Positions 1,095 through 45,892 of a stretch of DNA of 50,058 bases are shown piece by piece; within the stretch, counting starts at the first letter, position 1, and every line of letters begins with the position of its first letter. The stretch is taken from contig JAUSFV010000010.1 in assembly GCA_030649305.1 (NCBI GenBank), positions 1-50,058 on the forward strand, read 5' to 3'. Origin of the DNA: a bacterium. GTDB taxonomy: Bacteria > Patescibacteriota > Minisyncoccia > Sungbacterales > GWA2-42-14. The notes beneath the pieces were generated by a model, which saw nothing but the letters and a program-made list of their open reading frames with translations, made no database searches and was not told the DNA's origin. Made by a program: the position numbers and the translations under genes.

Positions 1095-1195
1095 CCCCGT
1101 TAGAAGTCGTCTTTATATGACCGAGGCCAGTCAATTTCAGGTGGCCGCAACTTAATATAATGAACACCCAGCAAACCCAAAAACTTCTAACGGGG
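1095..1195. mobile_element. MITE-like element, copy 1 (CCCCGTTAGAAGT inverted repeats)
   Basis: A 101-bp element bounded by perfect 13-bp inverted repeats CCCCGTTAGAAGT (1095-1107) and its complement (1183-1195). TTCA lies directly outside both ends (1091-1094 and 1196-1199), as expected for a 4-bp target duplication. Its interior closely matches copy 2 (TTATATGACYG, CCAGYCAATTTCAG, AACTTAAT, GCAAAC). On the minus strand CTGAAA (1135-1140), 17 bases and TATAAA (1112-1117) form a promoter-like pair firing toward the PHP gene. No transposase is encoded. It separates the divergent PHP and lpdA genes. Confidence 0.8.
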
Positions 1196-19074: not shown

Positions 19075-21774
19075 CTATAACTCCGCCCACGTCTTTCCCT
19101 CATGCGCGTCCACCGGAAACGGAACCGCGCCCTCAAAGCACGATTCCATAATTTTTTTAATTTCTGTTTTATAATGTTCTGATTTTTCTTCGCGCGCCTC
19201 AAAAATAAGTTCATCATGCACCTGCAAAAGCATCCGCAAATCCCCGCGCTTAAAATCTTCGGCAAACGCGGCCCAAATCCGTATCATGGCGCGCTTCAAA
19301 ATGTCCGCCGCCGTTCCCTGAATCGGCGCGTTTACCGCCATGCGCTCGGCTTCCGCCACTTCACGAAACCCGCCGGAAAAAAGCTGGGGCAAATACCGCC
19401 GCCTGCCGAATGCCGTCTCCACATACCCCTCGATGCGGGCTTTTTCTTTTGTCTCTGCAATATAATTCGCAATGCCCGAAAAATCGCTGAAATATTCGGA
19501 AAAAAACTTTTTTGCCTGTTCAAGCGGAATACCCGCACTCTCCGCAAACGAACGCACGCCCATGCCATAGAGAATTCCGAAGTTAAGCGCTTTTGCCGCA
19601 CGGCGCATCTCGGGCGTTACCTTTTCAATCGTCGTATCATTCACTTCCGCCGCGGTAAGCGTATGAATATCCATCCCGCGCGTGAACGCGTCAATCATCT
19701 TTTTGTCTCCCGCTAAATGTGCCGCAATCCGCAATTCCAATTGCGAATAATCAAACGCAAGAAAAGAAAAACCTTTTTCCGCAACAAACGCGGCGCGAAT
19801 TTCTTTGCCGCGCAGAGTTTTCGTAGGAATATTCTGTACATTGGGGTCAGATGAAGAAAGGCGCCCCGTAACGGTTCCTGTCTGGTGGAATGTCGTATGA
19901 ATTCTCCCGCCCAAGTCAACAAGCTTCGGAAGCGCCTCAATATACGTACTCTGTAGCTTTGCAAGTTCCCGATATTCAATAAGGAACGGAATGATGGGAT
20001 GTTCTTTCTGCATACGCGAAAGCTGGTCAATGTTGGTAGAAAGGCGTCCCGTTCCGGTTTTTTTTATGCGGGCACTCTTGCCAAGGCCAAGTTTCGTAAA
20101 AAGAATTTCCGAGAGCTGTTGCGAAGAATTGATATTAAATGATTCGCCGGCGTTCTTGTATATTTTTTCTTCAAGAATGCCTATCTCTTTTTTGGTTTTT
20201 TGCGAAAGTTTTAAAAGATACCCCGTATCAATCCCAATGCCCCAACGCTCCATTGCGGCAAGAATCACAGGAAGAGGCATTTCAAATTCTTCAAATATCC
20301 GGAGAAGCTGATTTTTTTCAAGATCATCTCGAAGGCGTCGGGCAATGCGCGGGAGAAGTGCAAGCAGGTCGCCCGTGCTTATATCAGCCACATCTTTTTG
20401 TAAAAACCACGACACAAGTTTTCCAAGCGAATAATCGCGCCTTCCGGGGTCTGCGATAAACCAAGCGAGCTTGCAATCAAAAAATGTTCCCCACCCCTCC
20501 GCAAACGGAGCTAATTTCAAAAACGCCTTAAGATCGTGCGTGATAAGGTCAACGCCTTTTGTCGCTGTAAAAAAATCTTCCGCCTCGCGGGAACGCAATA
20601 ATTTTTCCGGCACAGCGAAAAATTCCGAAGATCCCTCGGGCCTAAAGCCCGACCTAGTCCGACCGCGGACGGTCTCGGATGGCTCGGCCGTGTAGGGCAG
20701 AATAAAAAACGTTTTTGACGCCTCATCAAAAAGAAACGCGAGCCGCGTGCCGCGCAAGGAAGATACAGGAAGAAGATGCCAATCTTTGCCATTCGTAATT
20801 TTCACTTCTTTTTGTTTCGGCGCCTCCGTTTCTTTTTCAAAAAGCGTCGCCGGCCCCGGCGCTGTTCGCGTCTGTTCGTTTTCTGTTCGTGGCTGTTCGT
20901 GTAAACGTTTCAGAAAGCTCGAAAAGCCAAATTTTTCAAAAATAGGTTCGAGTTTGTCTTTATGAGATTGCATCCCCCGCCATTCGCCCTCTTCAAGCGT
21001 TACGGAAACGGGAGCGTCCCGCGCAATAAGCGCAAGTTCTTTTGAAATACGCGCGTTTTCTTCCCCCTCTTCAAGTTTTTTTCGTACAGAATCGGAAAAT
21101 GAAAATGCGCCCCTTTTTTTAAGAGCTTTGTAGGTATTTTCAACAGAGCCATATTTTTGCAAAAGTTCTGTTGCAATTTTTTCGCCAATTCCTTTAACTC
21201 CGGGGATATTATCCGAGGGGTCGCCCCGGAGCCCCTTATAATCCACAAGCATCTCGGGCCCGAAGCCAAACCGTTCGCGCACGGCTTTTTCATCATATAA
21301 AATCGTATCCGAAATGCCCTTTTTTAGGGTAAACACGGACACGCGCGGCCGCACGAGCTGGAGCGCGTCCAAATCGCCCGACACAATAACAACTTCATAA
21401 TCTTTCTTTTTTGAAAAACTTTCCGCGAGCGTCCCAATAACATCATCCGCCTCATACCCTTCTTTTTGAATGACCGGAATGCCAAATGCCTCAAGAATTT
21501 CGCGCACCATGGGAATTTGTGTGATAAGTTCATCCGGCGCTTTGGGGCGATGGGCCTTGTAGCGCTCATACGCAATATGGCGGAACGTTGGGCCCGGCAA
21601 GTCAAAGGCAGCAAACACAAAATCGGGTTCTAATTCCCCGAGCATTTTCAGAAGCATAGAGGTAAAACCGTATGCCGCCTGGCTTGGTTTGCCGTCGGGA
21701 GTGCGCAAACCCGGCAGCGCATGAAAGGCGCGATGGATAAGAGAATGGGAATCAATTAAGATAATGCGCTTCAC
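19075..21774 (-). CDS. polA: DNA polymerase I, start codon replaced by a mobile element
   Basis: 899 residues. The 5'-3' exonuclease domain begins VKRIILIDSHSLIHRAFHAL (family: MKKLLLIDGHSLxYRAF) and includes the helix-hairpin-helix GVKGIGEKIA; the 3'-5' exonuclease-like middle lacks the first DxE pair and is probably inactive for proofreading; the polymerase has motif A FDYSQLELRIAAH and motif C QVHDELIFE. The frame is open 26 codons further upstream, but those residues are encoded by the MITE. The start is GTG 21774, whose first G is the last base of MITE copy 2. Two in-frame repeat insertions occur: HEQPRTENEQTRTAP, encoded by GTTCG words, and ETVRGRTRSGFRPEG, encoded by a hairpin. Confidence 0.95.
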   Translation of the reverse strand: MKRIILIDSHSLIHRAFHALPGLRTPDGKPSQAAYGFTSMLLKMLGELEPDFVFAAFDLPGPTFRHIAYERYKAHRPKAPDELITQIPMVREILEAFGIPVIQKEGYEADDVIGTLAESFSKKKDYEVVIVSGDLDALQLVRPRVSVFTLKKGISDTILYDEKAVRERFGFGPEMLVDYKGLRGDPSDNIPGVKGIGEKIATELLQKYGSVENTYKALKKRGAFSFSDSVRKKLEEGEENARISKELALIARDAPVSVTLEEGEWRGMQSHKDKLEPIFEKFGFSSFLKRLHEQPRTENEQTRTAPGPATLFEKETEAPKQKEVKITNGKDWHLLPVSSLRGTRLAFLFDEASKTFFILPYTAEPSETVRGRTRSGFRPEGSSEFFAVPEKLLRSREAEDFFTATKGVDLITHDLKAFLKLAPFAEGWGTFFDCKLAWFIADPGRRDYSLGKLVSWFLQKDVADISTGDLLALLPRIARRLRDDLEKNQLLRIFEEFEMPLPVILAAMERWGIGIDTGYLLKLSQKTKKEIGILEEKIYKNAGESFNINSSQQLSEILFTKLGLGKSARIKKTGTGRLSTNIDQLSRMQKEHPIIPFLIEYRELAKLQSTYIEALPKLVDLGGRIHTTFHQTGTVTGRLSSSDPNVQNIPTKTLRGKEIRAAFVAEKGFSFLAFDYSQLELRIAAHLAGDKKMIDAFTRGMDIHTLTAAEVNDTTIEKVTPEMRRAAKALNFGILYGMGVRSFAESAGIPLEQAKKFFSEYFSDFSGIANYIAETKEKARIEGYVETAFGRRRYLPQLFSGGFREVAEAERMAVNAPIQGTAADILKRAMIRIWAAFAEDFKRGDLRMLLQVHDELIFEAREEKSEHYKTEIKKIMESCFEGAVPFPVDAHEGKTWAEL
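20634..20692. repeat. Hairpin insertion within polA
   Basis: Contains GTCCG-ACCG-CGGAC (20657-20670) preceded by CCTA, plus CGGGCCTAAAGCCCG. It encodes about 15 extra residues in the degenerate exonuclease-like domain. The ACCG-loop hairpin matches the one within uvrB, with a different stem. Confidence 0.65.
20866..20916. repeat. GTTCGCGTCTGTTCGTG words within polA
   Basis: Tandem TGTTCG(C/T)G words, encoding QPRTENEQTRTA on the minus strand in the linker after the 5' nuclease domain. The same words occur at the yidC-khpB junction (39604-39702) and inside a T4SS gene (47974-48022), where they encode HEQTRTADTNRREQ. Confidence 0.65.
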
Positions 21775-21872
21775 CCCGTTAGAAATCACCTTTATATGAC
21801 TGGGACCAGCCAATTTCAGATGACAAAACTTAATGCGATAAACACCCCGCAAACTAAAAATTTCTAACGGGG
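21774..21872. mobile_element. MITE-like element, copy 2, inserted in the polA start codon
   Basis: A 99-bp element with 13-bp inverted repeats CCCCGTTAGAAAT (21774-21786) and complement (21860-21872), flanked by TTCA on both sides (21770-21773 and 21873-21876). Removing the element and one TTCA restores ATGAAG..., an ATG start for polA overlapping the tsaE TGA by four bases. On the minus strand CTGAAA, 17 bases and TATAAA (21791-21819) form a promoter-like pair pointing at polA. The interior is about 75 percent similar to copy 1 by eye. Confidence 0.85.
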
Positions 21873-21873
21873 T

Positions 21874-22314
21874 TCATAAAACTTTTAACTTTCGTTCGTT
21901 AGATTTTTTTCCATGATGAAAAGAAATGCGAACAATGCTTTTGGGTAATATTTTTTTAATCCTCTCCGCCCATTCAATCACAACGATACTGTGCGGGTCT
22001 TTAAAAATTTCTTTAACGCCGAGGTGTAAAAGTTCTTTCGACGACTTAATCCGATAACAATCAATATGAACAAGGTGCCGCGCTTTGCCGAATGGATACA
22101 CGTTCATCAACACGAATGTCGGACTTTTCGGAATATCTTTAATACCAAGCCCCCGTGCAAATCCCTGTGCGAACGTAGTTTTTCCCGAACCGAGATTTCC
22201 TTCAAGCGCTACGACAAACGCCCCCGTTTTGTGGGGGGTTTTTTTGATTTCCTTGGCAAGGGCGGAGGCGATGTTTTTTGTTTGAGAAGCGCTGTGGGTA
22301 GTGATTTCAATCAT
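21874..22314 (-). CDS. tsaE: tRNA t6A37 threonylcarbamoyladenosine biosynthesis ATPase TsaE
   Basis: 146 residues. ATPase that drives the TsaBDE complex making t6A on ANN-decoding tRNAs. Walker A GNLGSGKTTF, then SPTFVLMNVYP and HIDCYRI (family SPTFxLxNxY and HxDxYR) and IVVIEWAERI (family VxxIEWxE). Open frame extends upstream but through repeat words; ATG 22314 gives the family N terminus. Its TGA stop formed an ATGA overlap with polA before the MITE inserted, so the two were an operon. Confidence 0.92.
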   Translation of the reverse strand: MIEITTHSASQTKNIASALAKEIKKTPHKTGAFVVALEGNLGSGKTTFAQGFARGLGIKDIPKSPTFVLMNVYPFGKARHLVHIDCYRIKSSKELLHLGVKEIFKDPHSIVVIEWAERIKKILPKSIVRISFHHGKKSNERKLKVL

Positions 22315-31045: not shown

Positions 31046-32218
31046 TTACGCAACCCGAAATATTTTCCGTTTCCCGACTTTTATAATATCGCCGGAAGCT
31101 ATTGCTATCTCCGCGTATGCGTCTTTCAACACTTGTTGGTTAATTTCAACGGCTCCCGGTATGATGAGGCGCCTTGCTTCACTCTTAGATAACGCAAACC
31201 CAACCTCAAGAAGAAGCTCGGGGAGTGTATATGTTTTTTTCTTTAAACGGCGCGAAGGAATATTTGAAAGATCTTTTTTAGAAAAAAGCTTTACAAAATT
31301 TTCGCAGGCTCGGCGCGCTTTTTCTTTTCCGTGATACAGGCCCGCAACGCGCTCTGCCAATTCAAGCTTCAAATCCCGTGGATTCTTACTGTCCTTGGGG
31401 TCCCACCGAGGAAGTTCATCAACGGGGACAAAAGCGGCAAGCTCTGCGTAATGGAATATAAGAGAATCAGGAATAGACATAATTTTTCCGACCATCTCGT
31501 CAGCGCTGTCGGTAAGAGCAATATAATTCCCGAGTGACTTTGACATTTTGTGCTTCCCGTCAAGTCCGATAAGGAGCGGGAGGAGCACCAAATCCTGCTC
31601 CGGATACCCTATCTTTTTTTGCAATTCGCGCCCCGCAAGCAAGTTTAATTTCTGATCCATGCCGCCAAGCTCAACATCGGCGCGCACCGCAACCGAATCG
31701 TATGCCTGCATGATCTGATACAGGGTTTCATGATGTGCCACCTCTTCTCCTTGTTCCAGGCGCCGCTTAAAATCCTCGCGGTCCAAAATGCGGTTCGTGG
31801 AAAAATTTCCGACAACACGAAGAAACTCGGCAAGTTTCATTTTGGAAAACCATTCGCTGTTGTAATGAATTTCCGCCTTTTTCAAATCAATAATCCGGCC
31901 TACTTGTTCAAAGTAGGTTTTGGCGTTTTTTTTGATTTCTGCATCCAAAAGAGGCGGACGCGCTTTTGTTTTGCCGGAGGGGTCACCGATTGCCGCGGTG
32001 TAGTCGCCGATAATAAAAACCGCCGTATGCCCTGCGTCCTGAAATTCACAAAGTTTTCTCAGGACAAGCGCGTGCCCCAAATGCAAATCGGGCGCCGTCG
32101 GATCCGCCCCTAATTTCACCCGAAGTTTTCGACCCGAGGAAAATTTCTTTTCAAGCGAAACCTGATCAATAATTTCTTCGGCAAGCGAAAAAATATCGCC
32201 GTAAAGATTCTTTTTCAC
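31046..32218 (-). CDS. tyrS: Tyrosyl-tRNA synthetase, start codon replaced by a mobile element
   Basis: 390 residues. Class I synthetase: LGADPTAPDLHLGHALVL holds the HIGH-type HLGH (46-49), the signature KHKMSKSLGN is the KMSKS loop, and the C-terminal S4 domain reads LPELLLEVGFALSKSEARRL. The start is GTG 32218, whose first G is the terminal base of MITE copy 3; the remaining TGAAAA comes from the target site. There is no usual Shine-Dalgarno, only the element's own AACGGG. The ancestral start was evidently ATGAAAAAG, still visible as ATGAA at the far end of the element. Confidence 0.95.
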   Translation of the reverse strand: MKKNLYGDIFSLAEEIIDQVSLEKKFSSGRKLRVKLGADPTAPDLHLGHALVLRKLCEFQDAGHTAVFIIGDYTAAIGDPSGKTKARPPLLDAEIKKNAKTYFEQVGRIIDLKKAEIHYNSEWFSKMKLAEFLRVVGNFSTNRILDREDFKRRLEQGEEVAHHETLYQIMQAYDSVAVRADVELGGMDQKLNLLAGRELQKKIGYPEQDLVLLPLLIGLDGKHKMSKSLGNYIALTDSADEMVGKIMSIPDSLIFHYAELAAFVPVDELPRWDPKDSKNPRDLKLELAERVAGLYHGKEKARRACENFVKLFSKKDLSNIPSRRLKKKTYTLPELLLEVGFALSKSEARRLIIPGAVEINQQVLKDAYAEIAIASGDIIKVGKRKIFRVA

Positions 32219-32343
32219 CCCGTTAGAAGTCTGCCGTTATATGGCCAACAACCAATTTCAGACAGACACGACAATAGATATAACCCCGCTTGTTTGATGT
32301 GGAAAAAATTACTAATTTTTTCCACCAAAGACTTCTAACGGGG
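32218..32343. mobile_element. MITE-like element, copy 3, inserted in the tyrS start codon
   Basis: 126 bp with inverted repeats CCCCGTTAGAAGT (32218-32230) and complement (32331-32343), flanked by TTCA (32214-32217 and 32344-32347). It shares TTATATG and CCAATTTCAG boxes with copies 1 and 2, but the right half is longer and includes a private hairpin GGAAAAAATT/AATTTTTTCC. Excision with one TTCA restores ATGAAAAAG. Confidence 0.85.
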
Positions 32344-37874: not shown

Positions 37875-37981
37875 CCCCGTTAGAAGTTTAGAACTCCTCG
37901 TCTTAAGAACAATAAAGAGGCAGTTCGGTCGTATTGGATAGATTCTGGATACGTTTATCGTGCGTTTGACTTCTAACGGGG
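37875..37981. mobile_element. MITE-like element, copy 4, in the putative origin region
   Basis: 107 bp with perfect terminal repeats CCCCGTTAGAAGT and complement (37969-37981). The interior is unrelated to copies 1-3 (GAACTCCTCGTCTTAAG, AAAGAGGCAG). Flanks are TTCAG and TCAAC, so the TTCA duplication is imperfect. It lies 42 bases upstream of rpmH. Confidence 0.75.
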
Positions 37982-45795: not shown

Positions 45796-45892
45796 CCCTG
45801 TTAGATAACGAGGAGCTTGGTGCTTATAACTAAAACAATATTTTTCTTGATATCACAGTAAATCACGAATTTTAAATTTTTATCTAACGGGG
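45796..45892. mobile_element. MITE-like element, copy 5 (divergent)
   Basis: 97 bp; ends CCCTGTTAGATAA and TTATCTAACGGGG form a variant of the same terminal repeat. The interior is unrelated. No TTCA flanks; instead the left flank CAATGTTGT is complementary to the right flank ACAACATTG, which is also the start of structured element copy 2. It is directly upstream of virB4. Confidence 0.55.

Follow-up and report, generated by a model that had tools for sequence, protein, structure and literature searches.

A small repeat has inserted into the start codon of polA in the stretch of DNA analysed here (50,058 nucleotides of a contig from a patescibacterial genome, hereafter the window), and the polA case is one instance of a larger pattern in which small mobile repeats have repeatedly lodged in start codons. 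A start codon hit by a transposon is normally destroyed. We consider it likely that these repeats form a non-autonomous, MITE-like family that generates a 4-bp direct repeat and is retained at gene starts because an insertion there restores the signal and makes the element the gene's 5' leader. Neither the genome-wide extent of the phenomenon nor its spread across phyla had been seen in the preliminary description of this DNA.

Direct reading of the sequence places a 99-bp element (21774-21872, minus strand) between tsaE and polA, with TGAA on either side. Its ends are perfect inverted repeats of 13 bp (CCCCGTTAGAAAT; 14 bp if A/T is counted), located at 21774-21786 on the polA side (plus strand) and at 21860-21872 on the tsaE side (minus strand). 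The direct repeat, which reads TTCA on the plus strand, occupies 21770-21773 (polA side; compare the 127 paired elements below) and 21873-21876 (tsaE side). On the minus strand the junction runs ...AAAGTTTT ATGAA [CCCCGTTAGAAAT ... ATTTCTAACGGGG] TGAAGCGC..., where the outer bracket encloses the element; with less upstream sequence it is ...GTTTT ATGAA [CCCCGTTAGAAAT...ATTTCTAACGGGG] TGAAGCGCATTATC.... By its ends, direct repeat and family alignment (A1/A2) the element belongs to a group that we call family A. Its last base, G, and the second TGAA give GTGAAG, a rebuilt polA start (GTG, 21772-21774, minus strand; the element contributes the G, the direct repeat the TG) that opens an ORF of 899 aa encoding DNA polymerase I (19075-21774, minus strand). 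The original ATG (21875-21877, minus strand) survives upstream of the element, and its ATGA overlap with the tsaE TGA (21874-21876) is intact. NCBIfam names the genes flanking the element as polA and TsaE; tsaE (21874-22314, minus strand, TIGR00150 match) is taken to start at ATG 22312-22314.

The preliminary description had proposed that an element sits precisely in the polA start codon, that TGAA flanks and a terminal G turned ATG into GTG, and that the old ATG still overlaps the tsaE stop as ATGA; read on the minus strand, all of this is borne out. Its further proposal – that PolA keeps its exact N terminus – is likely but less secure. In the alignment of the GTG-started protein with the 5'-3' exonuclease model NF011547, position 1 of the model falls on residue 1, but the polA frame is open backwards through the element, which contains other possible starts (GTG 21787-21789 and TTG 21850-21852). 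Translational bypassing over the element was considered and found unnecessary, since a GTG is already in place. Searches of the window for Rfam families and tRNAs gave no match.

The check that had been suggested, a comparison with tsaE-polA junctions from relatives lacking the element, supports the proposed history. Among 38 genomes examined, 36 (this one included) carry polA; in the relatives, which even at their nearest belong to other genera, polA read at the junction contains no element and starts in the majority with ATGAAA or ATGAAG. In four of them (L113, L116, L119 and L132) the start of polA and the TGA of tsaE form an ATGA overlap. Because these polA genes are free of the element and four show the overlap, the reconstruction of the ancestral junction as ATGAAG with a four-base overlap holds: it is seen exactly in those four. 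The tyrS genes of relatives are also without an element and start near the same place. That insertion is recurrent follows from the many more copies of the form ATGAA[element]TGAA found at other gene starts.

Within the window the end motif (at most one mismatch) occurs eight times where 0.13 occurrences are expected, and none of 100 shuffles reached eight; these motifs are not chance. A second family A copy (32218-32343, minus strand; end motif, ORF and profile match) lies in the start codon of tyrS (GTG 32216-32218), arranged as at polA. The third (1095-1195, minus strand, TTCA on both flanks) splits a plus-strand gene near its 5' end, at codon 6-7 (ATGAATGCGCACAAATTCA, then the element), with the addition of an in-frame stop; it also supplies the interrupted gene with a new in-frame ATG (MNTQQTQKLLTG...). 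A fourth element, recognised by the same ends (37875-37981, plus strand), lies upstream of rpmH and outside its start codon. At 45796-45892, just upstream of a 630-aa ORF, there is a related inverted repeat in which complementarity running on into the flanks (CAATGTTGT...ACAACATTG) replaces the direct repeat.

One search of the whole genome found about 36 paired elements with these ends, 15 of them in the start codons of ORFs of 93 to 899 aa. Eleven of the 15 have the form ATGAA[...G]TGAA, two have one decayed flank (L061 and L067), and in two the element ends in A and restores ATG (L072 and L075). Copies in this genome that are flanked by TTGA or TTTA are mainly intergenic. Copies at different places within one genome are 89-100% identical, and identical 4-bp flanks were found in 127 element pairs, TTCA, TTGA and TTTA being the commonest.

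To look beyond this genome, one genome per species was scanned with the pattern TGAACCCCGTTAGAA, which is blind to start codons. The matches listed include at least 80 loci, from Patescibacteria, Omnitrophota, Nitrospirae, Deltaproteobacteria, Phycisphaerae and others, together with some matches that are plainly chance, the second end being missing. When the matches listed were pooled with other loci, 94 copies had identical TGNN flanks; in 70 of these an ORF of at least 60 aa begins at the restored codon. For the null, occurrences of TGAA/TTCA were counted both in the noncoding DNA and at the ORF starts of the same loci, giving an expectation of 12-17% (p ~5e-35). ORF-based nulls are approximate; even a generous expectation of 50% gives 1e-6. 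Of 380 genomes sampled from the window's own phylum, 57 contain the ends.

A second register is evident in the high-copy genome G282 (88 ends), where copies – unlike those of the scan – were not chosen by flank. In copies whose direct repeat is TATG the ATG stays whole, and 16 of 16 restored ATGs start ORFs, including that of rpmH (ribosomal protein L34, 46 aa), against a null of 0.24 (p ~1e-10). Given this second register, a letter preference for TGAA alone cannot explain the pattern. Promoter boxes are favoured as well: 11 of 26 copies flanked by TTGA or TTTA restore a TTGACA-like -35 hexamer with a -10 at 16-18 bp, compared to 66 of 1052 noncoding control sites (6%; p 2e-7). Start codons and -35 boxes, both preferred sites, are signals that the duplicated letters regenerate.

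Between the 13-bp inverted ends, CCCCGTTAGAA(A/G)(C/T), lies an interior of 50-150 bp that varies among families. An in-frame, stop-free ATG is present inside the element in 35 of 70 start-codon copies, mostly 18-36 nt before the rebuilt codon, as against 9 of 70 in a control frame and 7-10 of 70 on the reverse strand; the genes concerned probably gain a tail of the form M...(I/T)SNGV. In most family A copies a TAA lies in frame 21 nt ahead of the GTG, and copies with this stop should therefore use the GTG; the polA copy has lost it. Family A also contains a subterminal hairpin (approximately 21787-21825, minus strand, in the polA copy) with an invariant internal loop, GAAAT/TATATAA. Across 18 members the hairpin is 93% paired and shows 21 double changes, compared to 7.3 when shuffled; none of 500 shuffles reached either value. 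The covarying structure fits a DNA hairpin equally well as an RNA one. A -10-like sequence lies in the loop, about 22 nt before the GTG, and it is possible that family A carries a promoter; in the other families promoter-like sequence shows no enrichment, forward and reverse strands being equal.

Elements with these ends also occur in other settings. Whole tRNA genes are bracketed by elements or end motifs in L006 (1501-1605), L082 (1409-1513) and L142 (1400 on, the right end degenerate), the tRNAs being tRNA-Val(TAC), tRNA-Thr(TGT) and tRNA-Gly(CCC); passenger capture of tRNA genes is possible. Short elements of 53-68 bp, of frame-keeping length, lie in coding sequence or right after an ATG (L153, 1461-1528; L317, 1413-1465, a pilin gene in which the GFT motif is duplicated; L146, 1463-1530). 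Minimal hairpins of 28-29 bp consist of both ends with 2-3 nt between them (C1:4622-4650, C26:6697-6725 and C37:20218-20246 in G282; L336, 1377-1405; L191), and tandem elements occupy a single start codon in L338, L354 and L169 (TCTAACGGGGTATG followed by CCCC...; TAACAGGGTGAA followed by CCCC...).

Orientation differs between families. Within each genome, A-type copies face one way with respect to their gene: in family A, 16 copies with an exact TGAA and two with a decayed one stand against three others. Family B and the TTTA family of G282, by contrast, lie either way round with respect to the direct repeat, and in G282 related interiors run in the opposite sense to the gene when compared to G000. 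Such opposite-sense interiors argue against one conserved RNA function and leave a role at the level of DNA possible. We read the fixed orientation of family A as selection for gene-compatible copies rather than as proof of guided insertion; it could instead stem from a strand-specific mechanism, although family B and the G282 TTTA family are mixed.

The MITE-like assignment draws on perfect 13-bp terminal inverted repeats, a direct repeat of fixed length (4 bp), small non-coding elements in many dispersed copies (the roughly 36 pairs of this genome, the 88 ends of G282), and an empty site at polA in relatives, albeit relatives of other genera. A limited search of the loci examined, 18 viral contigs and long end pairs found no autonomous copy or transposase with the same ends, hence "MITE-like". 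A 1.3-kb end pair in G174, taken up as a candidate autonomous copy, turned out to pair an unrelated end with a 53-bp element that lies within a pilin gene, and the core sequence of the ends does not fit a circular junction or an integron attC-like site.

To the features observed directly – ends, direct repeat, start-codon position, two registers, A-type orientation, conserved hairpin and near-identical dispersed copies – we add the following scheme. Transposition would create a 4-bp direct repeat, most often TTNA and roughly YNNR. Where the repeat is TGNR, GTG (or ATG) is rebuilt from the element's last base, G (or A), and the second repeat copy; where it is TATG, the ATG is left whole. In either register the element would take the place of the gene's 5' leader, in family A possibly with a promoter of its own, and placement at start sites would result from target preference combined with selection in favour of insertions that leave the gene expressed. 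A symmetric mechanism of the cut-and-paste type with a 4-bp stagger would produce both orientations, as seen in family B and the G282 TTTA family. A bolder proposal, which we advance tentatively and at less than even odds, is that these elements are a class whose targets are translation start codons and which serves as a plug-in gene start: entering the ATG in one of two registers, regenerating the start codon and taking over the 5' leader (with the conserved hairpin and promoter-like TATATAA in family A), they would rewire how essential genes, polA and tyrS among them, are expressed.

Could start-codon copies simply be survivors? A MITE with a short target preference might insert anywhere, copies within genes being lost and those in start codons persisting only because TGAA and the terminal G happen to rebuild GTG, with neither targeting nor benefit. 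The direct repeat is indeed short and common, insertion into ATGAA is self-repairing, and intergenic copies exist. Nevertheless, compared with noncoding sites there is a strong excess of start codons, -35 boxes are in excess too (11/26 vs 66/1052), the TATG register gives 16/16, and A-type copies share one gene-relative orientation within each genome; pure survivorship is somewhat unlikely. A little harder to credit is an insertion step that is itself start-codon specific, the transposition machinery recognising gene starts through, for example, melted or ribosome-engaged DNA or an interior guide. Copies flanked by TTGA or TTTA lie outside start codons, no such machinery was identified, and selection could yield the same picture; yet start codons are hit in two different 4-bp registers, single start codons have been re-entered in tandem (L169; L338 and L354), and the family A hairpin is conserved.

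An improbable alternative is a REP/TIR repeat moved through single-strand transposition by a resident HUH tyrosine transposase (Y1, RAYT/TIRYT), the right tetranucleotide being part of the element. Y1 transposases are present in 25 of 38 relatives, a REP hairpin beside one Y1 gene (TTCTTACGAGG-TTCAA-CCTCGTAAGAA) resembles the joined ends of the element, and "TIRtrons" have been described with TIRs that share GGGGWSAS (PMC3733652). However, although Y1 is present in G000, it is absent from 8 of 12 carrier genomes, including that with the highest copy number; high-copy genomes that lack it are G282, G109, G122, G362, G388 and G059. None of six RAYT-like ORFs in the loci examined is bounded by the ends (one has an element about 600 bp away), and family B and the TTTA family occur in both orientations to the flanking tetranucleotide, whereas family A is fixed. 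Resident Y1/RAYT enzymes, not bounded by the ends and missing from several high-copy genomes, are thus unlikely mobilisers. REP hairpins lie near Y1 genes in L079 (764-790) and L081 (1124-1150), with the sequences TTCTATAGAGG-TTTAG-CCTCTATAGAA and TTCTTACGAGG-TTCAA-CCTCGTAAGAA, and one of these also occurs in frame inside its own transposase gene (peptide YRGLASIEK). Far less credible still is an immobile, inherited regulatory RNA leader with a stem that ends at the start codon. The covariation of the family A hairpin and a terminal stem that closes over the start (z -5.9) would suit such a leader; direct repeats of 4 bp, interiors that are unrelated although the ends are the same, the absence of the element from relatives, near-identical copies at different loci and related interiors in opposite gene-relative orientation (G000 vs G282) would not, nor would the failure to match Rfam, and orthologous placement across genera was not seen for polA or tyrS.

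The MITE-like family that we favour has parallels among known repeats. Prokaryotic MITEs, reviewed with Correia, ERIC, RUP and MITEAba12 as examples (PMC10969869), are alike in size (about 100 bp), inverted ends, short target duplication, lack of coding capacity, frequent proximity to genes and, for some, promoters; the family described here differs in lodging in the start codon itself and rebuilding it, in two registers. That review does not mention start codons. Rickettsia palindromic elements and enterobacterial RU elements (PMC10969869, PMC2759123) are mobile palindromic repeats known for in-frame fusions with genes, much as two copies here are in frame inside coding sequence (L153 and L317), but those elements lie inside ORFs, whereas ours are mainly in start codons, and the ends are different. 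REP/BIME and TIRtrons with their RAYT/TIRYT (PMC3733652) share short palindromic repeats, G-rich ends and genomes with Y1 transposases; here, however, several high-copy genomes lack Y1, no Y1 gene is bounded by these ends, and two families take both orientations to the direct repeat. TIRtrons are the nearest alternative and remain a lead. We found no earlier report of a start-codon-lodged mobile repeat in the open-access literature.

One set of ends, common to several phyla, recurs in housekeeping genes exactly in the start codon, and the reading frame is restored. This offers an unusual route by which mobile DNA could rewire expression in tiny, gene-dense genomes while the gene survives, and a natural means of finding out which features mark a gene start for insertion. 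In many genomes the annotated starts may need revision, as may N termini (SNGV-ending tails).
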